Source of the DNA: Spartobacteria bacterium
GTDB taxonomy: Bacteria; Verrucomicrobiota; Verrucomicrobiia; Chthoniobacterales; UBA10450
Length of the DNA stretch: 64,000 nucleotides
Direction of reading: 5' to 3'
Assembly: GCA_003167555.1 (NCBI GenBank)
Contig: PMSN01000023.1
Span: forward strand, 124,001 to 188,000
The translations under genes and the position numbers were made by a program. This document shows, piece by piece, positions 14,542 to 30,337 of the stretch (position 1 is its first letter; each line of letters begins with the position of its first letter). Under the pieces are notes generated by a model. That model worked only from the letters and a program-made list of their open reading frames with translations, ran no database searches and had not been told where the DNA came from.

Positions 14542-14693
14542 AAATATTGTCTCAGTTAAGTTTCGAAGCGCCGGTGAGGGTAACACGGCCGCAAGAATCG
14601 ACGCGACATATTTCCGCGCCGCCGCTAGCGTGATTGTGATTTGAGCGAAAAAGATTTTCGCAAATGGTTCGCTCGCGAACCGCGCCTTGCCGC

Positions 14694-15386
14694 ATGAGCT
14701 CGAAGAATGCATTGATCGAGGTGCGTAATCTGCGGCGGTCGTTCGATTACGGCGCCGTCCAGGCATTGCGCGGAATCAGTTTCACCGTCGAGCAGGGCGA
14801 GTTTGTTTCCATCATGGGACCGAGCGGCTCCGGCAAGACGACCTTGCTGAATATTCTCGGCGCGCTCGACTCGGAGTTCGAGGGCGCGGTCACGATCGAC
14901 TCGGTGGAAATGCGCCACCTCGCGGAGCCGGAGCGCTTCCGCTCCCGCACGATCGGGTTTGTTTTTCAGTCCTTCCATCTTCTCCCGGCGCTGACGGCCC
15001 TCGAGAATGTGCAGATGCCGATGTTCGAGCGAAAGTGGCGCGCCTCAGAGCGGCGAACGCGCGCCGCGGCTCTGTTGGGATCGGTCGGCTTGGAACATCG
15101 CATGGACCATCGTCCCTCCAAGCTCTCGGGAGGAGAGCGACAGCGCGTGGCGATTGCGCGAAGTCTCGCCAACGAACCGAAACTCTTGCTCGCCGACGAG
15201 CCCACCGGAAATCTCGACAGCTCTGATGCGCTCAAGATCCTGGAAGTGTTGGGCGCCATTCATCAGCAGCGAAACATGACCATGATCGTCGTCACGCACG
15301 ACTGTGATGTCGCGGCGGCGACGAATCGGACGTTGCGCGTGCGGGATGGGCAACTGGTGGAAAAGCAAATCTCCAACGGCGCGTGA
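14694..15386 (+). CDS. ABC transporter ATP-binding protein (LolD/MacB-like)
   Basis: The 230-residue ATPase has Walker A GPSGSGKT (42-49), signature LSGGERQRV (144-152), Walker B LLLADE (164-169) and the H-loop VTHD. The spacing and TGNLDS following Walker B are typical of the LolD/FtsE/MacB group, which powers mechanotransmission-type transporters. ATG 14694 removes a 10-residue basic extension; ATG 14664 is an alternative. It is followed after 6 bp by its permease. Because the ADOP array at 22.8-48.6 kb has no ATPase, this one is a conceivable but unproven partner. Confidence 0.93.
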   Translation: MSSKNALIEVRNLRRSFDYGAVQALRGISFTVEQGEFVSIMGPSGSGKTTLLNILGALDSEFEGAVTIDSVEMRHLAEPERFRSRTIGFVFQSFHLLPALTALENVQMPMFERKWRASERRTRAAALLGSVGLEHRMDHRPSKLSGGERQRVAIARSLANEPKLLLADEPTGNLDSSDALKILEVLGAIHQQRNMTMIVVTHDCDVAAATNRTLRVRDGQLVEKQISNGA

Positions 15387-15392
15387 AGTTCC

Positions 15393-16511
15393 ATGTCTTT
15401 CTTCCAACTCATTTTGAAAAATCTCTTCCGACGGCGCTCGCGCAGTCTGCTCACGCTCGGTGGAATTTCGATCGGCATCGCGGCGGTCGTGTCGCTCTCG
15501 GGGATCGCGTCCGGATTCGAGCGGAGCTGGGCAAATGTTTACAAAGCACGCGGCACAGACCTGGTCGTGACGAAGTCTGTCACGCGCAGCACCATGCCGG
15601 GGCCTTTTCCTTTCGCTTTGAAAGCGGAGCTGCAGAGGATGCCGCACGTGCGGGAAGTCGGCGCGCTCCTGAGCGATGTCTTCAGCGTCGAAGATTCGCC
15701 CACCATTCTTGTCATCGGATGGGAAACGAAGACCTCGCTTTGGAATCACGTGAAACTGGTGAGCGGGAAATGGCCGGACGATTCGTCGAAAAATACGGTC
15801 GCGCTCGGCACCCTCAACGCCGAGATGCTGGGAAAAACTCTCGGCGACAAGGTCCAGATCGAGAGCGGCGAATACACCGTGTGCGGAATTTTCAGCAGCC
15901 CCGCGCTCGCGGAAAGCGGCGCGATCGTGATGCCGTTGCCGGCCATGCAATCGCTGACGAACAAGGAAGGCATGGTGAATTTTTTCGACATCTGGCTCGA
16001 GCCCAATACTTCCGTCGGCGACACGGAGAAGCTCCGCGTTTCGATCAAAGCAAAGTTTGAGGGATTGACCGCGTTCAATCCGGGATCCGTCGCGGAAAAT
16101 AATATCGCGATGCAAATCGCGAAGGCGATGACGTGGGCCGTTTCCTCGATTGCGCTCGTGGTCGGCGCGATCGGCGTGATGAACACCATCCTGATGAGCG
16201 TCTTCGAACGCTTGCACGAGATCGGGATTCTGTTGGCGATCGGCTGGCGGCGTGGGCGCATCATGCAAATGATCCTGGCCGAGTCGCTCCTGCTCAGTCT
16301 CGTCGGCGGATTCGCGGGTTGCGGCCTGGGCGCGGTCGCGGCGCGGCTGTTGCAAATGAGTCCATGGGTCCACGGAAAATTGGAAGCGGACGTGGGCCTT
16401 CCGCTCCTGGGAATCGCGTTACTGATCGCCATCGCGCTCGGCGCTCTGGGCGGATTATATCCGGCGTGGATCGGTTCGCGGATGTCGCCGGCCACCGCAC
16501 TTCGCCAATGA
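15393..16511 (+). CDS. FtsX/MacB-like ABC transporter permease
   Basis: The 372-residue permease has an N-terminal membrane helix (LLTLGGISIGIAAVVSLSGI, about 20-40) and a periplasmic MacB core region (about 45-225). Three C-terminal helices form the FtsX domain (about 240-370, AIGVMNTILMSVFERLHEIG, then ALGGLYPAWIGSRMSPATALR). It has one FtsX domain, half the length of the ADOP permeases later in the window. It follows its ATPase by 6 bp. Such pairs extrude lipoproteins, peptides or drugs, or act in envelope signalling; the substrate is unknown. Confidence 0.92.
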   Translation: MSFFQLILKNLFRRRSRSLLTLGGISIGIAAVVSLSGIASGFERSWANVYKARGTDLVVTKSVTRSTMPGPFPFALKAELQRMPHVREVGALLSDVFSVEDSPTILVIGWETKTSLWNHVKLVSGKWPDDSSKNTVALGTLNAEMLGKTLGDKVQIESGEYTVCGIFSSPALAESGAIVMPLPAMQSLTNKEGMVNFFDIWLEPNTSVGDTEKLRVSIKAKFEGLTAFNPGSVAENNIAMQIAKAMTWAVSSIALVVGAIGVMNTILMSVFERLHEIGILLAIGWRRGRIMQMILAESLLLSLVGGFAGCGLGAVAARLLQMSPWVHGKLEADVGLPLLGIALLIAIALGALGGLYPAWIGSRMSPATALRQ

Positions 16512-16545: not shown

Positions 16546-18762
16546 TCAATTACCCGGGGCAAACTTCGCGTAGCGCTCGTCGCAACCCAGCGAAAGGAGA
16601 AAAGTCCAGAGCACGCGGAGCATCGTCTTCGGTTCCGAGGGCGGGACGTGGGCGGAAAAGCGTTTCCATTGTTCCGTCATCATTTCGTGCGCCTCTCGCC
16701 GGCAAAGCGCGAGCGCGCCGGAGCGCTGCACGAGATCGATGCCTTCCGCGACGACGGAAGGTTCGGAACGTAAAGCCGGCGAACAAAAAATTGTTTCCAG
16801 GCGCGCCGCTTCCGCCGCGGGCAAAAGCCGCAACGCTTTTGCGACAACATAAGAAAGCTTTCCCGCCGCGATGTCGCTGCTCTCGGCGCCCCGGCCAATG
16901 ACGTTGGGGCTGAACTCCACGATGTCATTCACGATCTGGAATGCGACACCGAAGCAACGCCCGAAATCGCAGCAGACACGCTTGGTCGCTTCATCGGTCT
17001 GCGCGATCACACACGCCCCCTCGGCGCCGGCTTCGACAACCGCGGCGGTCTTCAAGGTGTAGAGCTGAATAATTTTGGCGTCGATCGAATCGTCCATCCA
17101 CAGGCGGAGCTGCTCGCGCGTGAGAGATTTCGACCAGTAAATGTCCTGTCCCTGACCCAGATGGACGCGCACATACAAGCGGGTCAGAATGCGGAAGAGC
17201 TCGAGCCGCTGCGCATCGCTCAAGTGCGGGTAATCGCGCAAGAGAAGCATCGGCAGAAAATAGGCGGCGTTGCCGGCGTTGATCGCCACATCCACGCCGT
17301 AACGCAGATGGATGCAATCCTCGCCGCGCCGCAGCCGGCTGTTGTCCACGATATCGTCGATCACGAGCAAACCGTCATGAAGCATTTCCGCCGTGATGCT
17401 GATCAGAGAGGAGTACGGGGTTGGCTCCACGCCGAGCGCGCCCAGGATGAGCGTTCCGAAAATTGGCCGCCACGGGTTGCCGCCGCCACGATCCATGAAG
17501 TCCCAGAGCGGCTTCGCCAGAACGGCAGTTTGCGCCATCGTATCATATTCACTGTCCGCGGGCCCGGCGAACCGCTCTAGGTCCGCCTGGCTGAAAGTGC
17601 GCGGCAAAAAAGATTCGATATCGGTGCGGATGCGGCTGACAGCTTTGTCGAGGTGTTGCTCGAGATCGAGAAGATAGGCATACCCGTGCAACTCGAGCCG
17701 CGCGTGTCCACCGATCGCTCGTCCGGCCCAAGTGCCTTCGACCCGGCCCGCTCCTTCCCAGACGGCGCGGATGGGCGGGAAGATGGGAATTTCCTGATCG
17801 AGCACGAGCGGCTCGAAATCGAGCTCCAACTCCAAAGATGGAATCGTTACCTGACACGCGACCGGATACGAAGCGTCCGAGACGGGGCTCGTCCACCAGG
17901 CGCGCGGCGTGATTTCCACGTCGCGCAACAAACGCGCGGCTCCGCCTTCGTCGACGAGCACCGCGTATTGGCAGAGAGCCGCGCCCGAGCGTTGGTCGCG
18001 GATAACCATGACCAGTAATTCAGAATCGTTCTCGAGCTGAACGCCGAGCCAGTCCCAGCCAAAAATTTGCGCCGTGTTTTCCCCGGCCACGAACCAGCCC
18101 TGGCTGCCCCATTGATGATCGAGCCAGGCCTCGCCGCGCACCGTCTCGCCATCGACATCGCCTTCGAGCGCGAGCCGCGTGTACGAGACGTAATCCATCG
18201 ATCCGCCATTCGCGACGGCAACATCCGCGAGATGAAATCGCGGATGAACCGGCGTGAGCCGGAACGAGCAGCGGCGCTCTGTTTCCGGTTCGATGAAGCC
18301 GAGCACGAACGCGTCCTCAGTTTGGCTCAATTCAAAATCACCCCAGCGCGCCCGCAGTGGCGCGGACTCGATCGTCGCACCCGGCGCCAATGTGCGAATC
18401 GATTTGGGTAATCCATATTGTTCGATCTCATCCGTGAGCGACCGGACCGCGATTGGATCGAGCCCCGCCGGCGGCGCGGTCCGCAACGCCGCGACCAGGA
18501 ACGGGACCGTGGCGGGATCGATTTGAGAGAGCCACGCGGAAGACCGGGAAGATTCTTCCAGGGTTGAGATCAACAACGAATAGGCGTTCCCGGCCGAGAT
18601 GCTGCCCCACTCGAGCGCATGACGAAAAAGCGAGACCATGAATTCACGGCGGCCGGATTTCTCACTCTCGAAGCGGCCCTGCACGAACCACCACTCGACG
18701 GGAAAACCCATTCGCGGCGATTCATCACCCAGGCGGATTTGTGTTTCACTCCGCAGGTGCAT
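16546..18762 (-). CDS. Fusion: CrtC/AttH-like lipocalin domain + polyprenyl diphosphate synthase
   Basis: The protein is 738 residues from ATG 18762. The N-terminal half resembles the AttH/CrtC hydratase family: GFPVEWWFVQGRF near the start, MDYVSYTRL, then GEAWLDHQWG (Asp215-His216) and FGWDWLGVQL. The C-terminal half is a trans-prenyltransferase: first Asp-rich motif DDIVD (469-473, in LLVIDDIVDNSRLRRGED), then GQGQDIYW and KTAAVVEAG, and a second motif reading NDIVE (612-616) where DDxxD is usual. It probably makes or modifies an isoprenoid. A longer frame to 18984 would overlap the cupin gene. Both domains are recognisable; the fusion and altered second motif are unusual. Confidence 0.82.
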   Translation of the reverse strand: MHLRSETQIRLGDESPRMGFPVEWWFVQGRFESEKSGRREFMVSLFRHALEWGSISAGNAYSLLISTLEESSRSSAWLSQIDPATVPFLVAALRTAPPAGLDPIAVRSLTDEIEQYGLPKSIRTLAPGATIESAPLRARWGDFELSQTEDAFVLGFIEPETERRCSFRLTPVHPRFHLADVAVANGGSMDYVSYTRLALEGDVDGETVRGEAWLDHQWGSQGWFVAGENTAQIFGWDWLGVQLENDSELLVMVIRDQRSGAALCQYAVLVDEGGAARLLRDVEITPRAWWTSPVSDASYPVACQVTIPSLELELDFEPLVLDQEIPIFPPIRAVWEGAGRVEGTWAGRAIGGHARLELHGYAYLLDLEQHLDKAVSRIRTDIESFLPRTFSQADLERFAGPADSEYDTMAQTAVLAKPLWDFMDRGGGNPWRPIFGTLILGALGVEPTPYSSLISITAEMLHDGLLVIDDIVDNSRLRRGEDCIHLRYGVDVAINAGNAAYFLPMLLLRDYPHLSDAQRLELFRILTRLYVRVHLGQGQDIYWSKSLTREQLRLWMDDSIDAKIIQLYTLKTAAVVEAGAEGACVIAQTDEATKRVCCDFGRCFGVAFQIVNDIVEFSPNVIGRGAESSDIAAGKLSYVVAKALRLLPAAEAARLETIFCSPALRSEPSVVAEGIDLVQRSGALALCRREAHEMMTEQWKRFSAHVPPSEPKTMLRVLWTFLLSLGCDERYAKFAPGN

Positions 18763-18826: not shown

Positions 18827-19174
18827 TCAACGCGCCGCAGGCTGCCGATCCAGCGCGATGTATTCGTCACGCGGCGGGCTGAAGGTATCGAGCACCCGCG
18901 TGTCCTCGGGAGTTTCGACGCCGTGCGGAACATTGCTCGCGAGGTAATAGGATTCGCCCGCGCCCAATTCGTGCGTTCCCCCATTCGCGAAGACCTTCAT
19001 CCGTCCCGAGAGGATATGGATGATCTGTTCCTGCGGATGTTTGTGTTCCGGCATTTTGCTGCCGGCCTTCAGTTCAGCGATCATTTGATACATGTGCGCG
19101 CCATGCGTCACGGTGCGGCGCCGGATTCCGGGCGCCAGGTCGATCCACGGATTTTGAGATGCGGTTTCGCTCAT
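18827..19174 (-). CDS. Small cupin-domain protein
   Basis: The 115-residue protein is a single cupin. Motif 1 is KMPEHKHPQEQIIHILSGRM, with His and Glu/Gln metal-ligand positions. Motif 2 is SYYLASNVPHGVETPEDTRV, with the conserved Pro-His. It starts within the last codons of the AI-2E-family transporter gene (4-bp ATGA overlap) and ends 64 bp before the prenyl synthase fusion. The three genes probably form one transcript. Cupins of this size bind a metal and a small ligand; the role is unknown. Confidence 0.88.
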   Translation of the reverse strand: MSETASQNPWIDLAPGIRRRTVTHGAHMYQMIAELKAGSKMPEHKHPQEQIIHILSGRMKVFANGGTHELGAGESYYLASNVPHGVETPEDTRVLDTFSPPRDEYIALDRQPAAR

Positions 19175-20220
19175 ACTGTTCTTTCTAACCTGGCTCGATC
19201 AACCGGCTCACCCGTGATGGGCCTGGAAGCGGCCACCGTAATCGGAGATGTTTCCATTTTCGACAGCTCGACCCGGAGATAATTCAAGACCACCGGCGAG
19301 AGGATCATGCCGGGGACGCCCATGAGTTTTTCGCCGATGATCAGGCCAAATAAGGTCAGCCAGATCGGATTGCGGATGCGGGCGCCGACGATCTTGCTGT
19401 TTAGGAAATATTCCAGCTTGTGGACGACCACCAGGAAAACGAGCGCGCCAATCGCGACCTTGGGCGAAACAAGGAAACCGATGAAGACGATGACGGTGTT
19501 GCTGACGACGTTGCCGACGATCGGAAGAAGCCCACAGAGAAATGTCAGTCCGACCACGACTGGCCCATAGGGAAGTTGCACGACGAAAACGAAGATCGCC
19601 GTGAGCGCGGTGTTGATGCAGGAGATCGTCATTTGCGCGCCGATGACCGTCGCGAAGCTGCGGTAAAACTCGCTGAAGCGCGCGGTGATTTCGTCGCAGC
19701 AAGCCGAGTAGAGATTATTTCCGATCTTGTGGGATTCGCGAAAGAGATCGAGCTGACTGTTGAAAAAAAGACTGACAGCCGCGACCACCCCGATGATGAG
19801 AAAAACCGCGGTCGTCGAAGCGTTCCGGGCAAAATTCGCGACGTTGCCCAGGTAATGCGCCTCATCTTTTAGCGAGGCCATCGCGGTGGCTTTGAGGCTT
19901 TCGAAGTCGGTGAAGGGAAGGTTGAGATCAGGAACATGTGCCTGCAACCAGGCAATGATGGCCGGGATGGCGTTATCGGCGATTTTCGGCAGGGCAGAGA
20001 TGGCCGCGCGAATGAAATGTCCCGCCGTGTAGGAAATGCCCGCCAGCACGACGAGAAAAACGGCGAGCACGACCCATTTGTTGGGAATGAAGCGGCCCAG
20101 TTTTGTCAGCACGAAATAGGAAAAGAGCAGAGCCAGGAACGGCGCGCCGAGTTGAAGCAATCCCACGAGAATCAAAACAGCCGCGAGCAGCACGTAAGAG
20201 AAACGGGCGGGATTCGTCAT
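19171..20220 (-). CDS. AI-2E family transporter (PerM/DUF20)
   Basis: The 349-residue membrane protein has the family layout. Two N-terminal helices and a third near 48-66 are followed by a soluble helical segment (about 75-130). A block of helices then carries FLCGLLPIVGNVVSNTVIVF and the C-terminal signature NPIWLTLFGLIIGEKLMGVP. By family these are putative exporters or sodium/proton antiporters; transport of autoinducer-2 is shown only for some members. Its gene overlaps the cupin start by 4 bp. Confidence 0.9.
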   Translation of the reverse strand: MTNPARFSYVLLAAVLILVGLLQLGAPFLALLFSYFVLTKLGRFIPNKWVVLAVFLVVLAGISYTAGHFIRAAISALPKIADNAIPAIIAWLQAHVPDLNLPFTDFESLKATAMASLKDEAHYLGNVANFARNASTTAVFLIIGVVAAVSLFFNSQLDLFRESHKIGNNLYSACCDEITARFSEFYRSFATVIGAQMTISCINTALTAIFVFVVQLPYGPVVVGLTFLCGLLPIVGNVVSNTVIVFIGFLVSPKVAIGALVFLVVVHKLEYFLNSKIVGARIRNPIWLTLFGLIIGEKLMGVPGMILSPVVLNYLRVELSKMETSPITVAASRPITGEPVDRARLERTV

Positions 20221-21857: not shown

Positions 21858-22853
21858 ATGATCATTCGCACCCTTCTCCTGCTCTTTGTTGCCGCGACGA
21901 CTGCGTCCGCGTTGTCGGAAGAAAACGTCAGTCAAACTCTCGAGGGCGCGCCTGGCGGCAAACTCATCGTCGACGTCGATTTCGGAACGATCGATGTCTC
22001 GGCTGGCGCGGATGATAAGATTTCCGTCATGGCGCATCGCAAGATCGACTCGGACAATCAGGCACAGGAAAAAGAATATCTGGCCTCCGCGCCGGTCACG
22101 GTGAGCAAAGAGGGCAACACGGTCACCATTCGCGCCCGGCGCCAAAACAAAGAGCACAACCTGAATTGGAGCGGACGCTGCAGCATGGACGCGCGCTACA
22201 CCGTGCACGTGCCGCGGACATTTAATTCGGAGCTGCGCACCGGCGGCGGCACGATCATGGTCGCCGAATTGACCGGCTCGATGAGCGCCGACACGAGCGG
22301 CGGCAAATTGAAGTTCACACATTTGCACGGCCCGACCGGCGCGACCACCAGCGGCGGCAGCATCGAGCTGAACGGCTGCGAAGGCGCGCTCAAGGTCGAC
22401 ACGAGCGGCGGGCGGATCGAGGCGACCGATGGCAGTGGCTCGCTCGAAGCGCGCACCTCCGGCGGATCGATCGTCGTGCGGAATTTCGGCGGCGACACGA
22501 AAGTGGAAACCAGCGGCGGCCGGCTCACTTTCGAAAACATCAACGGCAAAATAACCGGACGCAGTTCCGGCGGATCGATCAGCGCCAAGTTGAAATCGCC
22601 CGTGCCGGGTGATGTGAATTTGGAAACGTCCGCCGGCAGCATCGACGTGACGGTTCCGCCTGATGCCGGTCTCGACATCGAAGCGGAAGCGAGTTCCGGA
22701 CGCGTGACGAGCGAGCTGCCGGTTACCGGGACGCGGACCGATCGCGATTCGATGAAAGGAAAAATAAATGGCGGCGGTAAATCGCTCGTTTTGCGCTCCG
22801 GCGCCGGCAGCATTTCGATCAAGCCCACTTCGGCGGAAGTGGCCGCGAGATAA
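21858..22853 (+). CDS. Secreted DUF4097-like beta-solenoid protein
   Basis: The protein is 331 residues from ATG 21858, which starts a clean signal peptide (MIIRTLLLLFVAATTASA). After an N-terminal sandwich (GGKLIVDVDFGTIDVSAG) comes a ladder of about eight short repeats with the core TSGGxI/L (TTSGGSIELNG, DTSGGRIEATD, RTSGGSIVVRN, ETSGGRLTFEN and others), the pattern of DUF4097 right-handed coils. It ends 13 bp before the first ADOP gene, which has its own GGAGG. It probably starts the operon. Its role, perhaps envelope-stress or surface related, is inferred from location only. Confidence 0.83.
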   Translation: MIIRTLLLLFVAATTASALSEENVSQTLEGAPGGKLIVDVDFGTIDVSAGADDKISVMAHRKIDSDNQAQEKEYLASAPVTVSKEGNTVTIRARRQNKEHNLNWSGRCSMDARYTVHVPRTFNSELRTGGGTIMVAELTGSMSADTSGGKLKFTHLHGPTGATTSGGSIELNGCEGALKVDTSGGRIEATDGSGSLEARTSGGSIVVRNFGGDTKVETSGGRLTFENINGKITGRSSGGSISAKLKSPVPGDVNLETSAGSIDVTVPPDAGLDIEAEASSGRVTSELPVTGTRTDRDSMKGKINGGGKSLVLRSGAGSISIKPTSAEVAAR

Positions 22854-22866
22854 TTCCGGAGGCGCC

Positions 22867-25284
22867 ATGAACGACCTCCGCTTCGCTCTCCGCCAGCTGC
22901 GGAAATCGCCGGGTTTCACTTTCATCGCCGTCATCACCCTCGCGCTCGGCATCGGCGCCAACACCGCGATCTTCAGCGTGATCTATGGAGTTTTGCTACG
23001 GCCGTTACCGTATCCGGACGGGGATCGAATCATGATCGTCACCGAGACCGACGCCAACCAACCGCAGATTTCGGTTTCGTTTCCGGACTATGTCGATTGG
23101 AAGCGCGACAACACCGTCTTCGAAAACATCGCGGTCGCGCGTCGAGAATCTTTTAACTTGAGCGGCCTCGAAGGACGCGCGCCCGAACAGATCAGCGGCG
23201 GTCTGGTCACGGCTAACTTTTTCAAGGTCATCGGGCTGGAGCCCCAACTCGGGCGGACATTCACGGAAGAAGAAGATCGCGTCGGCGGCCCACTCCTCGC
23301 GGTTATCAGCGATCGGCTTTGGCAAAGACTCTTCGAGCGCAATCCAAACGTGCTCGGTCGCACCCTTAATTTTGGCAATCAGCCGTACACGGTGATCGGC
23401 GTGATGCCGCCGCAGATGTTCTCGCCGCGCACGGTCGATGTTTGGTTTCCGCTCATGCGGCACACGGATAATCCAGGCTGGCAGACGCGGGATAATCATC
23501 CCGGCTTGTTCGGGTGGGCGCGCTTGAAAAAGGACGTCACGGTGGAAAAAGCGCTGAGTGAGCTAAAGCAAATCGCGGCACGTCTCGCGAAACAATATCC
23601 GGATTCAAATTCGGCGGTGAGCGTTACGGTGACTCCGCTGCTTGAAAATCAAGTGGGCGATTACCGCGATAGTCTCAATTTGTTGCTGGGCGCGGTTGCC
23701 TTGGTTCTGCTCATCGCGTGTGCAAATCTCGCGAATCTGCTCGCGGCTCGCGGCGCCACGCGGGCCCGCGAATTCGCAGTCCGCGCCGCAGTGGGAGCGT
23801 CGCGCTGGCAAATCATTCGCCAGCTCCTGATCGAGAGCGTCGTTCTCGCCCTGATCGGCGGAGCGCTTGGACTTGGTCTGGCGGCGTGGGGCCGCGATCT
23901 GCTGGTCGCGCTTTCGCCCGCCGGTTCCCCGCGCTTCAAGGACTTGCCTTTGGACGGTTGGGTTCTCTCCTTCAGTGTCGCGCTCTCGTTCGTTACCAGT
24001 CTTCTTTTTGGCCTCTGGCCGGCGTGGCATACCTCCCGCGTGGATATTCAACTCGCGCTGAAATCCGGCGGCCACGGGAGTTCGGATTCTCCCGGCGCGC
24101 GCCGCTCCCGCGATCTGCTCGTGATCGCCGAAGTCGCACTCACGCTCGTGCTCTTGAGCGGCGCAGGTTTGGTGCTGAAGAGTTTTGCCAACGCCCGGTC
24201 GCTTGGGCTCGGATTCGATCCGCATCTCTTACTTTCGGCCCGCATTAATCTTCCCGAGCCCAGCTATGCCGACGAGAGAAAGCTCTTGAATTTTTCGGCG
24301 GCGCTGATGGAGAAATTGTCCGCACTGCCAGGCGTGGAGCAAATCGCGCTCGCCTCGACTCCGCCGCTCATGACCGGATGGGAGACTTCCTTTGTCCCCG
24401 AAGGCGCGCCGGAACCGGAGCCGGGCAAGATGCCTTCGGCGGAGATGAACGTCGTCACGCCCGGCTATTTTCAAACGTTGAAGACGCCGTTGCTGCGCGG
24501 CCGGCCCTTCGAGGCCGGGGACACGAAGGACGTGCCTCCGATCATGATCATCGATCAGGTGCTCGCGGATCGTTATTTCCCCGCGCAGGATCCAGTCGGA
24601 AAACGGATCCGGATGTCGACCGGCGAGAAAGGGGAGCGTGAATATCGCATCATCGTCGGAGTCGTTCCGCACTTGAAGGTGTACGGCTTCGAGGAAACGA
24701 CGGTGTTGCCCCAGGCGTATCTTCCGATGACGCAGCAACCGCAGACCGGTCTGGTGGTATTGCTGCGCACCACGCTCTCGCCGAAATCGCTGGAGAAGCC
24801 GGTTCGCGACATCGTAGCGTCACTCGATCCCGCGCAACCTGCGTTCGAGTTCAAGACCATGCAGGAACGCGTGGAAGAAACATGGGCCACGCCGCGCCTG
24901 ATGAGTTTCCTGCTCGTTTGTTTCGCGATCCTGGCGCTGACGCTCGCGGTCGTCGGCCTTTACGGAGTGATGGCCTTCAATGCTCTGCGGCGCATGCGTG
25001 AAATCGGAGTTCGTCTCGCGCTCGGTGCGATGCCTGCGCAAATTCGCACCATGATGCTGGGCCAGGGATTGCGTTTGCTCGGCGGCGGCTTGATTCTCGG
25101 TTTCGCGGGAGCTTTCGCACTTTCTCGTGTCATCCGCAGTTTGCTTTTCGGCGTAAGCGTAAACGACCCGCTGATCTACGGCAGCGTCACGCTGGTCCTC
25201 GCAAGCGCCGCCATTTTTGCCTGCTGGATTCCCGCACGCCGGGCCTCGCGCGTCAATCCGATGATCACGCTCCGCGCTGAATAA
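22867..25284 (+). CDS. ADOP-family permease, copy 1
   Basis: The 805-residue protein has the ADOP layout. The start [19 protein letters not shown] is followed by a signal-anchor helix (about 20-45) and a first MacB-like periplasmic core (about 50-250). A three-helix FtsX domain (about 270-415, [20 protein letters not shown]) leads to a second MacB core (about 440-650). A second FtsX domain (about 680-800) ends [20 protein letters not shown] 22867 follows GGAGG by 4 bp and the solenoid gene stop by 13 bp. Its second FtsX domain has ALRRMREIGVRLALGA, most like copy 4. No ATPase is encoded nearby in the array, so its energy source or signalling partner is unknown. Confidence 0.93.
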   Translation: MNDLRFALRQLRKSPGFTFIAVITLALGIGANTAIFSVIYGVLLRPLPYPDGDRIMIVTETDANQPQISVSFPDYVDWKRDNTVFENIAVARRESFNLSGLEGRAPEQISGGLVTANFFKVIGLEPQLGRTFTEEEDRVGGPLLAVISDRLWQRLFERNPNVLGRTLNFGNQPYTVIGVMPPQMFSPRTVDVWFPLMRHTDNPGWQTRDNHPGLFGWARLKKDVTVEKALSELKQIAARLAKQYPDSNSAVSVTVTPLLENQVGDYRDSLNLLLGAVALVLLIACANLANLLAARGATRAREFAVRAAVGASRWQIIRQLLIESVVLALIGGALGLGLAAWGRDLLVALSPAGSPRFKDLPLDGWVLSFSVALSFVTSLLFGLWPAWHTSRVDIQLALKSGGHGSSDSPGARRSRDLLVIAEVALTLVLLSGAGLVLKSFANARSLGLGFDPHLLLSARINLPEPSYADERKLLNFSAALMEKLSALPGVEQIALASTPPLMTGWETSFVPEGAPEPEPGKMPSAEMNVVTPGYFQTLKTPLLRGRPFEAGDTKDVPPIMIIDQVLADRYFPAQDPVGKRIRMSTGEKGEREYRIIVGVVPHLKVYGFEETTVLPQAYLPMTQQPQTGLVVLLRTTLSPKSLEKPVRDIVASLDPAQPAFEFKTMQERVEETWATPRLMSFLLVCFAILALTLAVVGLYGVMAFNALRRMREIGVRLALGAMPAQIRTMMLGQGLRLLGGGLILGFAGAFALSRVIRSLLFGVSVNDPLIYGSVTLVLASAAIFACWIPARRASRVNPMITLRAE

Positions 25285-25310
25285 TGGCCTAACGAGAGGA
25301 GAAAAATCAG

Positions 25311-27719
25311 ATGAACAATTTTCGCTACGCCGTCCGCCAGTTGCGAAAATCGCCTGGATTCACTTTTGTCGCCATCCTTACGCTCGCGCTCGGCATTGGC
25401 GCGAACACCGCGATCTTCACCGTCGTTCACGCGGTCCTGCTCTCGCCGCTTCCTTTTCCCGACGCCGACCGCATCGTGGCAGTGCAATCGCGCAATCTGC
25501 AAGAGAACCTGAAGGGGCAAGGCTTCGCGCCCGCGGGCTTCCGGGATGTCGAGAAACAGGTCACCTCGTTTGAGAGCATCGCGGCCTATCGCTACAACTA
25601 CGACAATCTCACACGCGTCGAGAAACCGACATCGCTCACTGGCAGCCTCGTCACGCAAGATTATTTCCGAGTGCTCGGCGAGAAGGCGCTCATCGGCCGC
25701 ACTTTTACGCGAGAGGACGCGGCGGCCAACGCCAAACCTACCGTCCTGCTCAGTTACGATTTCTGGCAAAAACAATTCGGTGGCCGGCGCGAGATCGTGG
25801 GCGAAACAATCACGCTCGACGACGTGCCGCACGAGGTCATCGGCGTCATGCCGCGCACCTTCAAGGATCCGTTCAACATCTCATCCGAGTGGCGACTCTT
25901 TCCGAACGAAGGCGGCGAAAACTTCGTCGCCAATGCGCGCTTTTGGGGCGTCATCGGACGAATGAAGGCTGGCGTCGCGATGTCCAGCGTTCAGGCAGAG
26001 CTGTCCACGATCGCCACGCGGCTCGCACAGAGCGACGCGAAATTCTACAAAGGTTGGGACTTCAATCTGACGCCGCTCCGCGATTTGGTGGTCGGCAATT
26101 ACCGCGAAGGTTTGCTTCTCGTCGTCGGCGCCGCGTTGGTCGTGCTTCTCATCACCTGCGCCAATGTGGCCGGCCTGCAATTCGTCCGCACTTCGACCCG
26201 GCAACGCGAAGTCGCGATCCGTCTCGCGCTCGGGGCCAGCCGCGCGGCGATCGCGCGAGGGCATTTGATCGAATCGCTTCTGCTCGTCGCCGTCGGTGGA
26301 CTGGGCGGCGTCCTGCTCGCCAGTTGGGGCTTGGATCTGCTCCTCGCAAGTCTGGCGCGCGATTGGATTCCGCGCAGCGACGAGATCGCACTCAACACGA
26401 CGGTGCTGTTGGTCACCGCGGTGACAGCATTGCTTACTGGAATTGTCTTCGGGCTTTTCCCCGCGTGGCACGCCACGAGGATCGACGCGATCGATTCGTT
26501 GCGTGATGGAAGCAAAGGCTCCGCCGGTCTCCAATCGGTCCGGCTCCGCGGCGCGCTCGTCATCGCTCAAATTGCGCTCACCCTCGTGCTTCTCGTTTGC
26601 GCAGGTCTCGTCTGGAAAAGTTTCGCCGCGATCACGCGCGTCAATCCCGGCATCCAGATCGAGAACACGCTGAGCATGGTCATTACGCTCGCGCGCACTC
26701 GCTATGACACGGAACCAAAGCGGATCGGCTATTTCCGCCAGCTTCTCGAGCACACCAGCGTGATACCGGGCGTGGAATCCGTCGCGTTCACCCAGACGAT
26801 GCCATTCACCTGGGGGATACCGGCCACGTTCTCGGTTTACGGCTCGTCGAATGACGAAACCAAACTGCCGCCGGCCTTCTACGATTCCGTCAGTCCTTCC
26901 TATTTCGCGACGCTGCACATTCCGTTACTGGCGGGACGCACGTTCGCCGAAACGGATAATCTTCAAGCGCCCGGTGTGATCGTGTTGAGCCAGTCCGCCG
27001 CGAAGAAATTTTTTCCGAGCGAAGATCCTCTTGGAAAACGGCTCGTGCTTCCGCCGAGTCGCCAGCAACCGAATCCGCAGCCGCTCGAAGTCATCGGCGT
27101 GGTGGGTGATGTTCCGCGCAACGGTCTCGACGCCGACACGCCTTATCAAGTTTACGCTTCGCTGAATCAACGCGGCTGGGCGTTCGCAACGCTATTGATT
27201 CGCTCGCCGCTGCCCGTCGAGACAATCTCGCAAACGGTGCAGCGCGCGATCTGGGCCTTCAATCCCGAGCAGACGATCTCGAACGTCGCGCCGTTGCGAA
27301 CATTGGTGAAACAGAGCCTCACTCAACCGCAACTTTACCTCACGCTCTTCAGCCTCTTTGCTTTGCTCGCGTTGCTGCTCGCCGGCATTGGCCTTTACGG
27401 CCTCATTGCTTACAGCGTCGCGCAACGCACCCGCGAATTCGGCATCCGCTTCGCGCTCGGCGCGCAGATTGGCGATGTCCTCCGCCTCGTTCTCGGCCAA
27501 GGCGCCCGGCTGACCGCGTTCGGTCTTGCCCTCGGACTTCTGGGCGCGGCGGGAGTCGCGCGGCTCATGGAAACATTGCTCTTCCATACGACGGCTTACG
27601 ATCCTGTGGTCTTCGGCGGCGTCGTGTTCGTCCTCGGCGCGATCGGTCTCCTCGCCGCGTTGTTACCCGCGCTCCGAGCGACCAAGGCAGACCCAGTTGC
27701 CGCGTTGCGCGCCGAATGA
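25311..27719 (+). CDS. ADOP-family permease, copy 2
   Basis: The 802-residue protein begins [20 protein letters not shown] and ends ATKADPVAALRAE. It is 26 bp after copy 1, preceded by a good ribosome site (GAGAGGAG). The first periplasmic core opens with a distinct sequence (RNLQENLKGQGFAPAGF), and the second FtsX domain has the common [16 protein letters not shown] form. The 167-bp spacer after it contains a palindromic repeat. Being widely diverged from the other copies, it is not a recent duplicate. Confidence 0.93.
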   Translation: MNNFRYAVRQLRKSPGFTFVAILTLALGIGANTAIFTVVHAVLLSPLPFPDADRIVAVQSRNLQENLKGQGFAPAGFRDVEKQVTSFESIAAYRYNYDNLTRVEKPTSLTGSLVTQDYFRVLGEKALIGRTFTREDAAANAKPTVLLSYDFWQKQFGGRREIVGETITLDDVPHEVIGVMPRTFKDPFNISSEWRLFPNEGGENFVANARFWGVIGRMKAGVAMSSVQAELSTIATRLAQSDAKFYKGWDFNLTPLRDLVVGNYREGLLLVVGAALVVLLITCANVAGLQFVRTSTRQREVAIRLALGASRAAIARGHLIESLLLVAVGGLGGVLLASWGLDLLLASLARDWIPRSDEIALNTTVLLVTAVTALLTGIVFGLFPAWHATRIDAIDSLRDGSKGSAGLQSVRLRGALVIAQIALTLVLLVCAGLVWKSFAAITRVNPGIQIENTLSMVITLARTRYDTEPKRIGYFRQLLEHTSVIPGVESVAFTQTMPFTWGIPATFSVYGSSNDETKLPPAFYDSVSPSYFATLHIPLLAGRTFAETDNLQAPGVIVLSQSAAKKFFPSEDPLGKRLVLPPSRQQPNPQPLEVIGVVGDVPRNGLDADTPYQVYASLNQRGWAFATLLIRSPLPVETISQTVQRAIWAFNPEQTISNVAPLRTLVKQSLTQPQLYLTLFSLFALLALLLAGIGLYGLIAYSVAQRTREFGIRFALGAQIGDVLRLVLGQGARLTAFGLALGLLGAAGVARLMETLLFHTTAYDPVVFGGVVFVLGAIGLLAALLPALRATKADPVAALRAE

Positions 27720-27758
27720 TTCTCGATCCATGAACGCAATCGCCACTCAATTTTCGGA

Positions 27759-27877
27759 CTCCTCGTTCCCAAACTCTTTTGGGAATGCCGATGTCTTGAA
27801 AACTCCGTTTTCTCCCGGCTGCGAAACAGAGTTTCGAAAACCAAGTGCATTCCCAAACAGAGTTTGGGAATGAGGAG
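27759..27877. repeat. 119-bp palindromic repeat X, copy 1 (between ADOP 2 and 3)
   Basis: It begins CTCCTCGTTCCCAAACTC and ends CAGAGTTTGGGAATGAGGAG, the ends being inverted relatives. The interior has CCCGGCTGCGAAACAGAGTT. A near-identical copy lies at 35368-35487. Its end provides GAGGAG 9 bp before the start of ADOP copy 3. Confidence 0.9.
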
Positions 27878-27886
27878 CTGTCTGAC

Positions 27887-30337
27887 ATGAACAATCTGCG
27901 CTTCGCTCTTCGACAACTTCGCAAAGCTCCGGCCTTCACGCTGACCGCGCTTGCCACGGTCGCGATCTGCCTCGGAGCGAACCTTGCGATTTTCGCGGTC
28001 ATCAATTCGATTCTCCTCCGGCCGCTTCCCTTTCCGCAATCCGATCGGCTGGTGACAATTTTCAACACCTATCCGAAAGCCGGTGTCGAGAATGACGGCT
28101 CGTCGTACACCAATTACTACGAGCGGCGCGGCAACATTCCAGCGCTCGCGAGCCTTTCCATCTATTCCGAGCGCGGTGAAGTTGTGGGCGATCCCGGTTC
28201 GACCGAGCAGGTAGGGGTCATCCGCGTCACGCCGGACTTTTTCGCGACGCTTGGCGTTAATCTTGCGCTCGGTCGCACCTTCACCGAAGAGGAAGCGGCC
28301 GTGGCGGACAACAACGGAGTCCTCATCCTGACCGACGCTTTCTGGCGCCAGCGCCTTGCCGCCGATCCAAACGTTCTCGGTCGCGACATCCTCGTGAACG
28401 GTATCCAGAGAAAGGTCGTCGGCGTGTTGCCTCGGGATTTTCGCTTCCTCTCCTCGGAAGCGCGGCTTTTCCTGCCGATAAGGACGCGGCCGGAGCAGCG
28501 CGTGCCGAGCCAGCGTCATTCCGGCGGCGGCGCCATGCACATGATTGCGCGTTTGAAACCGGGCGCCACGATTGGCGAAGCGCAAGCGCAGATCGACGCG
28601 CACAATGCCGCGGTCGAGAAGGACAATCCCGAAGCAAAAATGATGGCCGAGGCTGGCTTCCGCTCACCGGTGATTTCGCTCCATGCTGATCACGTCCGCT
28701 CCATCCGTCCGACGCTCTGGTTGATGCAAGGCGGCGTGTTTTTTCTCCTGCTCATCGGCGCGGTCAACCTGGTGAACCTGCTTCTGATTCGCGCGAGCGG
28801 CCGCACGAAAGAAATGGCGATCCGCCAATCGATGGGCGCGAGCCGGCGGCATGTGGTGACTCAAGTGATGGTGGAAACGACCCTGCTGACGTTTTGTGGC
28901 GGATTGCTTGGTGTCGTCGTGGGCGCGTGGGGGCTTAGGCTGCTCGAAGTTCTGGGAGCGGATCGCCTGCCGCTCGGGGCGCACATTTCGTTCGACGGAT
29001 CGCTCGCGGCGATCGGGCTTCTCGGCGCAGTGGTTCTGGGAGTCGTGATCGCGGTGCCAATCGCCTGGTTCAGCCTGGGCAGCCATTTGGCGAACGCCCT
29101 CCAATCCGAATCGCGCACCGGCACGATCAACCGCGGCACTCAACGCCTTCGCCACGGCTTCATCGTCGCGCAGATCGCGCTCGCTTTTGTCCTGCTCGCG
29201 GGTGCGGCGCTGCTTGGTCTGAGCTTGAAAAAGGTGATGGCCATCTCTCCCGGTTTTCGCGCCGATCATGTTCTCACCGGCGAGTGCACCATCTCGTGGC
29301 AACTTGAGCCGGACCGGGTCGGAATCGTCGATCGCTTGCTGGAATCCGTCCGGCAGCAGCCGGGAGTCGCCGCCGCCGGAACGATCACGAACATCCCGCT
29401 GAGCGGAGATAACGGCAAAACCGCGGTTAAACCGAAGGACTATGTGCCACCGCCCGGCCAATCACTGCACGGTCATTACTCTTACGGCGTCAACGGAGAC
29501 TACTTCGTGGCCTTCGGCATTCCACTGCGCGAAGGACGGTTCCTCACCTCGGCAGATTCTCACCGCTCGGAACGCGTCTGCGTGGTGGACGAAGATTTTG
29601 CGCGGCGTTACTGGCCGAACGGGAGCGCTCTCGGCCAACAAGTCTTTCATGGCAACGTTGCCTACACCGGCAAGAGCGAAGTGGATGAGGGGAACCTTTT
29701 CACCATCGTCGGCGTTGTCGGCACGGTAAAACAGGCCGAGCTCACGGAAGCGCAGGGGCAGGGGGCGGTCTACATGCCTTACGCCTATCGCGACAACGCC
29801 AGCATTTTCGTCGTCACGCGCACGAGCCAGCGTCCGGAAGCGTTCGCCGAGACGCTGCGAAAGCTGGTGCGCGCAACACACCCCGAGCTCGCGGTCGATA
29901 ATATCCGCTCGATGGATACGCGGATCGCGGACAGCCTTATCGCGCGTCGCTCCCCGGCCCTATTGGCCGGAATTTTCGCTGGCGTCGCACTGCTTCTCGC
30001 GGCCATTGGAACGTACGGCGTTTTGAGCTACGCCGTCGCGCAACGCACGCGCGAGATCGGCATTCGCATGGCGCTCGGCGCGCAAAGGGGCCAGATCGGG
30101 ACGCAATTCCTCTCGTTAGGCCTGCGCCTTCTCGCCGCCGGCACCGGCCTCGGTTTGATCGGCGCGTGGCTGGCAGGAAGAGCGATGCAGAGCGTTCTCT
30201 TCGACGTGCCGACGCTGCACATCGCCACTCTTCTCGGTACCGCACTTGTCATTAGCGTGGTGTCATTAGTTGCCTGCCTCATCCCCGCGCGCCGCGCGAC
30301 CAAGGTCGACCCGATGATCGCGCTCCGAGCGGAATGA
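27887..30337 (+). CDS. ADOP-family permease, copy 3
   Basis: The 816-residue protein begins [20 protein letters not shown] and ends PARRATKVDPMIALRAE. The first core contains SVYSER-like SIYSERGEVVGDPGSTEQVG, and the first FtsX block is GAVNLVNLLLIRASGRTKEM, using Leu-Leu-Ile where most copies have Leu-Leu-Ala. ATG 27887 is preceded by GAGGAG contributed by the adjoining repeat. An in-frame upstream start at 27845 would lie inside the repeat and is rejected. Confidence 0.93.
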   Translation: MNNLRFALRQLRKAPAFTLTALATVAICLGANLAIFAVINSILLRPLPFPQSDRLVTIFNTYPKAGVENDGSSYTNYYERRGNIPALASLSIYSERGEVVGDPGSTEQVGVIRVTPDFFATLGVNLALGRTFTEEEAAVADNNGVLILTDAFWRQRLAADPNVLGRDILVNGIQRKVVGVLPRDFRFLSSEARLFLPIRTRPEQRVPSQRHSGGGAMHMIARLKPGATIGEAQAQIDAHNAAVEKDNPEAKMMAEAGFRSPVISLHADHVRSIRPTLWLMQGGVFFLLLIGAVNLVNLLLIRASGRTKEMAIRQSMGASRRHVVTQVMVETTLLTFCGGLLGVVVGAWGLRLLEVLGADRLPLGAHISFDGSLAAIGLLGAVVLGVVIAVPIAWFSLGSHLANALQSESRTGTINRGTQRLRHGFIVAQIALAFVLLAGAALLGLSLKKVMAISPGFRADHVLTGECTISWQLEPDRVGIVDRLLESVRQQPGVAAAGTITNIPLSGDNGKTAVKPKDYVPPPGQSLHGHYSYGVNGDYFVAFGIPLREGRFLTSADSHRSERVCVVDEDFARRYWPNGSALGQQVFHGNVAYTGKSEVDEGNLFTIVGVVGTVKQAELTEAQGQGAVYMPYAYRDNASIFVVTRTSQRPEAFAETLRKLVRATHPELAVDNIRSMDTRIADSLIARRSPALLAGIFAGVALLLAAIGTYGVLSYAVAQRTREIGIRMALGAQRGQIGTQFLSLGLRLLAAGTGLGLIGAWLAGRAMQSVLFDVPTLHIATLLGTALVISVVSLVACLIPARRATKVDPMIALRAE

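Follow-up and report, generated by a model that had tools for sequence, protein, structure and literature searches.

The gene at positions 16546..18762 on the minus strand of the analysed DNA (the window, a 64,000-nucleotide stretch from the genome of a Spartobacteria soil bacterium) raises the question of whether one polypeptide can make an isoprenoid chain and also modify it. Its 738-residue product joins an AttH/CrtC lipocalin-like region to a trans-isoprenyl diphosphate synthase (IDS). No cooperation between these families is known, and AttH itself has been a structure without a function for two decades. The first-pass annotation of this DNA had noticed that one open frame joins the two domains and that the synthase keeps DDIVD but reads NDIVE where the second DDxxD would stand, and had suggested that the protein may build and then hydrate or cyclise a prenyl chain, or that the synthase half may have changed reaction. 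The frame has exactly the coordinates given there, and both motifs read as described.

The frame runs without a stop from the ATG at 18762 to 16546 (738 codons). A mechanically called open reading frame reaches 18984, its 74 additional codons overlapping the neighbouring cupin gene; the start was placed at 18762 because a 79%-identical relative in another Spartobacteria genome (L005) starts at the equivalent Met, and the Pfam positions given here were counted after removal of the 74-residue extension. The double lipocalin region spans aa 1-361 (17680..18762, minus strand), where CrtC (PF07143; E=7e-11, 43.5 bits, best stretch aa 127-220) and Lipocalin_9 (PF17186; E=6e-22, 78.6 bits, aa 234-361) both score above cut-off, and the nearest solved structures are AttH NE1406 (2ich, Z 31.6) and kievitone hydratase (7a0t, Z 28.2), which places this half in the CrtC/AttH superfamily by domain and by fold. 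The IDS domain spans aa 415-659 (16786..17520, minus strand), matching polyprenyl_synt (PF00348; E=1e-39, 136 bits against a cut-off of 27) and the all-alpha isoprenoid synthase fold (Z 31.2 to GGPP synthase 1wy0). The full-length AlphaFold model (pLDDT 74, pTM 0.59) has an unreliable linker at 361-430 and is unfit for domain arrangement or metal geometry. Modelling of the second motif, as proposed in the first-pass annotation, returned a sound IDS domain when that domain was modelled separately (pTM 0.82), with the motif at the end of an intact helix, but the model is silent on metals. A link to family 2 encapsulin cargo, the best NCBIfam match (NF041169), was rejected at 101.7 bits against a cut-off of 450.

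Origin and spread of the fused gene

A scan of contigs recovered four more full-length fusions, from Spartobacteria (79% identity), Aminicenantes (38%), Acidobacteria (41%) and a proteobacterial MAG (37%). The 79% identity to the first of these spans both halves in an independent MAG, so the window fusion is no chimera. Searches of whole genomes found matches in 2 of 387 Verrucomicrobiota (the phylum of the window), in 10 of 119 genomes of the Aminicenantes class (nine fused, with the synthase alone in L033), in 3 of 396 from the phylum of L008 (L033 again among them) and in 1 of 299 from the phylum of L007. Among plasmid records, a Streptomyces canus fusion covers 96% of the query, with further matches in Tolypothrix and, diverged, in Nitrosomonas stercoris; these members are annotated merely as polyprenyl synthetase family protein or hypothetical protein. 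Full-length fusions recur in Verrucomicrobiota, Acidobacteriota (mostly Aminicenantia), a proteobacterial MAG, Streptomyces and Tolypothrix. The search for the same fusion in related genomes, which the first-pass annotation had called for, was therefore productive, and its own counter-case, that the halves exist separately in all relatives, is contradicted by this recurrence.

A tree built from 33 synthase domains gathers all 18 fused rows into a single clade (support 100/99) and sets them apart from the housekeeping IDSs that these genomes also encode. L033 and Streptomyces NBC_01431, both single-domain rows, are nested inside the fused clade and look as if the lipocalin had been lost. Comparison with L005 gives a dN/dS of 0.10 (lipocalin part 0.11, synthase part 0.09) at a dS of ~1.4, which is near saturation, and by this measure the window gene is under purifying selection. 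Judged from the sequences, the fusion is real and old, and no assembly accident. The architecture already sits in databases, and the family is an unstudied combination of two known families; an open-access literature search found no paper describing an AttH/CrtC–IDS fusion, an absence that is weak evidence.

Two sets of candidates were set aside. The Thermus loci (L009-L014) are stand-alone lipocalins whose match is confined to the lipocalin half. The long frames at L093:2687-4678 and L094:2823-4856 (minus strand) are a different fusion, in which a PF04240 carotenoid-biosynthesis membrane domain is joined to a CrtC lipocalin. We take the PF04240 domain to be CruF-like, so these frames would join two unrelated types of carotenoid hydratase in one polypeptide.

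Active-site residues of the two halves

A 2025 study of Rubrivivax CrtC (RgCrtC) found W110, W283 and W285 to be essential and D268 to be needed for protonation, with activity drastically reduced or abolished in mutants of these four residues (PMC12402844). The equivalents in the window protein are E23-W24-W25 for Trp110 (18688..18696, minus strand; invariant columns, register approximate), D215 for the catalytic Asp268 (18118..18120, minus strand; from the alignment, which also includes kievitone hydratase 7a0q) and W236-x-W238 for Trp283/Trp285 (18049..18057, minus strand; from the alignment). W24, W25, D215, W236 and W238 are invariant in an alignment of the fusions, AttH and the CrtC of Roseobacter litoralis; the exception is L040, where D215 is replaced by E and two W by R (W24 or W25, and W238), and the lipocalin catalytic set is lost in the Nitrosomonas row. 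The R. litoralis reference, a photosynthesis-plasmid gene adjoining crtD and read from 90 bases upstream of its annotated start, has H, W, Y, D, W and W at -29, -27, -2, 0, +15 and +17, exactly reproducing the 0/+15/+17 spacing of D268/W283/W285. The H, W and Y of this series presumably match H239, W241 and Y266 of RgCrtC. In kievitone hydratase (7a0q) the D and the WxW fall in the same alignment columns as in the fusions.

D215 is assigned as the catalytic acid because of its spacing relative to the H239/Y266/W283/W285 positions. Asp237 of the GWDW stretch was considered for this role and rejected: several fusions have N or S instead, and the corresponding stretch of genuine CrtC is YWTW. Equivalents of His239 and Trp241 are not kept in the window protein, which has M189 and Y191 at those columns. 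The fused lipocalin therefore retains the proton donor and the cation-stabilising tryptophans without the H239/W241 pair. The D...WxW set is conserved at the level of the superfamily and is no proof of hydration, since AttH itself is without proven activity. As a separate observation, the annotated start of the R. litoralis carotenoid 1,2-hydratase (L095:10801-11763, minus strand) looks too late, and in-frame codons upstream of it add a conserved WWYVDG motif.

The synthase half presents a more mixed picture. The first Asp-rich motif, DDIVD (D469-D473; 17344..17358, minus strand), is intact in the alignment, whereas the second reads NDIVE (N612-E616; 16915..16929, minus strand), with Asp1 and Asp3 replaced, and is no DDxxD. 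A third alteration, which the first-pass annotation did not include, lies at GGGNPWR (aa 426-432; 17467..17487, minus strand), where a one-residue insertion accompanies loss of the IPP-binding Lys of GGKR. The window protein keeps D469, D470 and D473 of the first motif, R478 and R479 (RRG), K571 and T572 (KT) and Q609 (FQ), and the IPP-site residues R432, H462 and R479 are also retained. The FARM, RRG, H, KT and FQ motifs are intact in all fused rows (with T as S in some), and GGK in most. The window protein is best described as a member of the IDS fold with an altered active site, and its status as a working IDS is at most a prediction.

The change in the second motif separates into two parts. 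Asp3 is replaced (by N, G, E or S) in 17 of the 18 fused rows, S. canus alone keeping it, and is present in all 15 single-domain rows, including the nested L033 and Streptomyces NBC_01431; the association with fusion (Fisher p about 1.5e-8) ignores relatedness, so the value is too small. Loss of Asp3, which had also escaped the first-pass annotation as a family-wide feature, is by this alignment a general trait of the fused family. The Asp1>Asn replacement is confined, among the 33 rows, to the window gene and L005, which alone read GGGNPWRP for GGKRWRP, with its inserted residue and missing IPP-binding Lys, and which have RGAESSD instead of the usual KxxGxD after the motif; on the same alignment it is a lineage-specific extra of this pair. 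Of the six Asp residues in the two IDS motifs, the third of the second motif is the one most easily spared, and the first of that motif is a direct Mg ligand. Loss of Asp3 alone therefore need not end catalysis, whereas the additional changes of the window lineage (Asp1>Asn and the altered GGKR loop) may abolish condensation with IPP. The altered motif thus combines a family trait with a lineage-specific change that merits testing, and this natural variation can be used to examine what the second Asp-rich motif contributes.

Genes beside the fusion

The fusion gene adjoins a Lol/Att-type export locus (14664-16511), which was not part of the first-pass annotation. It consists of a LolD-like ABC transporter ATPase (14664..15386, plus strand; PF00005), with homologues beside the fusions in L005, L007, L008 and L053, and a 372-aa permease of the FtsX/MacB type by Pfam (15393..16511, plus strand), likewise a recurrent partner and convergent with the fusion gene. 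The 34-bp gap between the convergent genes contains a terminator-like stem that may be due to chance, because shuffled sequences contain stems of this kind at least as often. In L008 and L053 the ATPase/permease pair and the fusion form an operon, as they do in L007, where an MlaC gene lies in between. When the window permease was used as a query, the best match genome-wide was the gene beside the fusion in all four other genomes (G387, G389, G390 and G794), an adjacency estimated to arise by chance at ~0.3-1.3% per genome, if each genome is taken to have 2-15 permease homologues and a flank of 2.5 kb is allowed.

Elsewhere the adjoining exporters are of other kinds. An RND protein adjoins the fusion in L049, L051, L052 and L055, together with LolA in the first three, and the best NCBIfam matches of these RND proteins are hopanoid HpnN, HAE3 and sterol BstA, all below cut-off. 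Two loci of the Aminicenantes class (L051:2408-8748 and L055:252-5897) place an aldehyde dehydrogenase, an HpnA-like epimerase, an SDR and the HpnN-like RND beside the fusion, a set that may form a pathway of terpenoid oxidation and export. An ABC-2-type pair lies near the S. canus fusion, and DevC with an ATPase near that of Tolypothrix. An exporter adjoins the fusion in the window and in L005, L007, L008, L053, L044, L045, L049, L051, L052 and L055; none was seen at L059 and L046, and the contigs of L050, L054 and L057 are too short to judge. The consistent neighbour of the fusion is a lipid exporter, whether a LolD/FtsX-type ABC transporter or an HpnN-like RND plus LolA, MlaC or DevCA, and the common theme of lipid export is the more telling because the exporters are unrelated to each other.

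The first-pass annotation had instead cast a linked cupin and transporter as possible accessories. The cupin gene (18827..19174, minus strand), 64 bp upstream of the fusion, and the gene for an AI-2E family membrane protein (19171..20220, minus strand), both identified by Pfam, are linked to the fusion in L005 only, and they were dropped as conserved partners. Neither the flanks of the window gene nor the other neighbourhoods inspected contained carotenoid genes. Elsewhere in the window's own genome there are three other IDS genes, two genes of the squalene/phytoene synthase family and one squalene-hopene cyclase, so the fused protein is a specialised extra and not the housekeeping enzyme.

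Several loci are recorded here in their own right. The window also carries three 800-residue FtsX-type duplicated permeases in tandem (22768-30337, plus strand). Contig C3 of the same genome has a paralogous ATPase and FtsX permease pair (L097:7447-10050), ~55% identical to the window pair and followed by a LolA_like gene, with no lipocalin or IDS gene nearby. A plasmid of Tolypothrix sp. PCC 7601 encodes a 1509-aa chain of sulfotransferase, glycosyltransferase, lipocalin and IDS (L045:12172-16701), near devC and an ABC ATPase gene, which suggests a sulfated, glycosylated isoprenoid. In a member of the Verrucomicrobiota (L060:7066-11789) the fusion lies between HMG-CoA synthase and a glycosyltransferase like diglucosyl-diacylglycerol synthase, and on a conjugative plasmid of N. 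stercoris (L046:9500-16085) a diverged IDS with a 340-aa N-terminal part is followed by FMO and GMC oxidoreductase genes. The Tolypothrix fusion partners and the neighbours at L060 and L046 all fit a decorated isoprenoid.

Proposed mechanism, alternatives and known systems

The reading preferred here, which we hold with middling confidence, is of one enzyme with two functions: it would build a polyprenyl chain and, by protonation, hydrate or cyclise the end of that chain, and the resulting lipid would be exported. The activity of either half, the order of the steps and the chain length are, like the outcome of the reaction and the export of the product, what we infer from sequence. An allylic prenyl diphosphate would bind to the C-terminal trans-IDS fold, which across the family generally would probably extend it with IPP. 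The N-terminal AttH/CrtC double lipocalin would act on the far end of the chain, with D215 protonating an unactivated C=C and W24/W25, W236 and W238 stabilising the cation, to yield a tertiary alcohol by hydration or a ring by protonation-initiated cyclisation. The product, or a glycosylated or oxidised derivative, would leave through the dedicated exporter, in the window the LolD/FtsX-type ABC transporter. The conserved CrtC catalytic residues and the mostly intact IDS residues thus lend support to the first-pass suggestion of building and modifying in one protein. Its other suggestion, of a changed reaction in the synthase half, applies most of all to the window gene and L005.

That suggestion is itself an alternative to be taken seriously, if doubtful overall: the synthase of the window and L005 would be an IDS-type terpene synthase or prenyl-diphosphate hydrolase, ionising an allylic diphosphate supplied by another IDS, with the lipocalin finishing the product. 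The coincidence of Asp1>Asn, Asp3>Glu and the GGKR>GGGNP insertion in these two rows only, the three other IDS genes of the genome and the strong purifying selection are consistent with such a switch, and in insects substitutions in the IPP motif mark transitions from IDS to TPS (PMC10962984). IDS-type terpene synthases such as those of insects are marked by the loss of most IPP-contact residues; in the window protein the altered parts are the GGKR loop and the second motif only. Against the switch, R432, H462 and R479 of the IPP site are retained. The missing GGK is also weaker proof of lost IPP binding than it looks, since the presumed-functional R. litoralis CrtE likewise lacks the lysine (GGAR), and the second motif does not form the NSE motif of class I terpene synthases, (N,D)Dxx(S,T)xxxE, as NDIVEFSPN has no S/T at +4 and no E at +8. 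A rather unlikely reading is that the lipocalin half is non-catalytic, a carrier that takes the hydrophobic prenyl product from the synthase to the adjacent exporter. Lipid transport is the role assigned to AttH (NE1406) on the strength of its calycin fold and its link to ABC transporters/LolD (PMC2954199), an unfused AttH-like gene lies within an ABC operon in Caballeronia, and both the exporters beside the fusions and the absence of the lipocalin domain from L033 and Streptomyces NBC_01431 accord with carriage. A pure carrier would nevertheless have no need of the D and WxW set, yet CrtC, AttH and most fusions all keep it unchanged, and proven hydratases belong to the superfamily.

Prenylation of an acceptor other than IPP, with the lipocalin half modifying or binding the prenylated product, would suit the altered IPP-binding loop of the window clade and the glycosyltransferase, FMO or GMC genes adjoining other members of the family. 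We consider it distinctly improbable, as other members of the family keep most of their IPP-binding residues and the neighbourhoods share no conserved acceptor gene. Metal-motif substitutions and a patchy distribution (2 of 387 Verrucomicrobiota genomes) might also be expected of a decaying pseudoenzyme or functionless chimera; with the dN/dS of 0.10, low in both halves, and the same architecture across several phyla in one clade, this is very improbable indeed. The boldest extension of the bifunctional reading would be a new class of terpene synthase present in several phyla, in which the IDS makes or presents the chain, the lipocalin cyclises it by protonation and a dedicated exporter handles an undescribed outer-membrane or secreted terpenoid lipid, the window-lineage IDS having switched from elongation to ionisation; taken whole, this is an unlikely conjunction.

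On the preferred reading, the fusion is a compact bifunctional protein that could serve as a terpene hydratase or cyclase without cofactors. Through the IDS half, prenyl chains become a likely class of substrate for AttH-type lipocalins, and the linked exporters indicate what probably happens to the product; together, fusion and exporters suggest an unstudied route to exported isoprenoid lipids. Among known systems, CrtC (PF07143) shares the lipocalin-like double domain and the conserved W110/D268/W283/W285 equivalents, and its action on the terminal C=C of prenyl chains is the role proposed for the fused lipocalin, but it is a stand-alone protein encoded in photosynthesis clusters beside crtD and is about 16% identical to the window domain. 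AttH/NE1406 (2ich) is closest to the lipocalin half in fold (Z 31.6, 25% identity) and among PDB sequences and shares the ABC transporter context (PMC2954199), although no IDS is joined to it. Kievitone hydratase (7a0q/7a0t) is a CrtC-superfamily hydratase of prenyl side chains with a solved structure and an aligned D and WxW; it differs in being fungal, in its single domain and in its substrate, a prenylated isoflavonoid. The solanesyl and GGPP synthases have the PF00348 fold and the FARM, RRG, KT and FQ motifs of the IDS half, whereas the fused family has lost Asp3 of the second motif and branches apart from housekeeping IDSs, and the window clade differs further in Asp1>Asn and the GGKR insertion. 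Finally, the fungal prenyltransferase-terpene cyclase fusions, for example PvCPS, the alpha domain of which is among the fold matches, likewise join an IDS domain to a product-modifying domain, but theirs is an alpha-helical terpene cyclase and that of the fusion a beta-barrel lipocalin.
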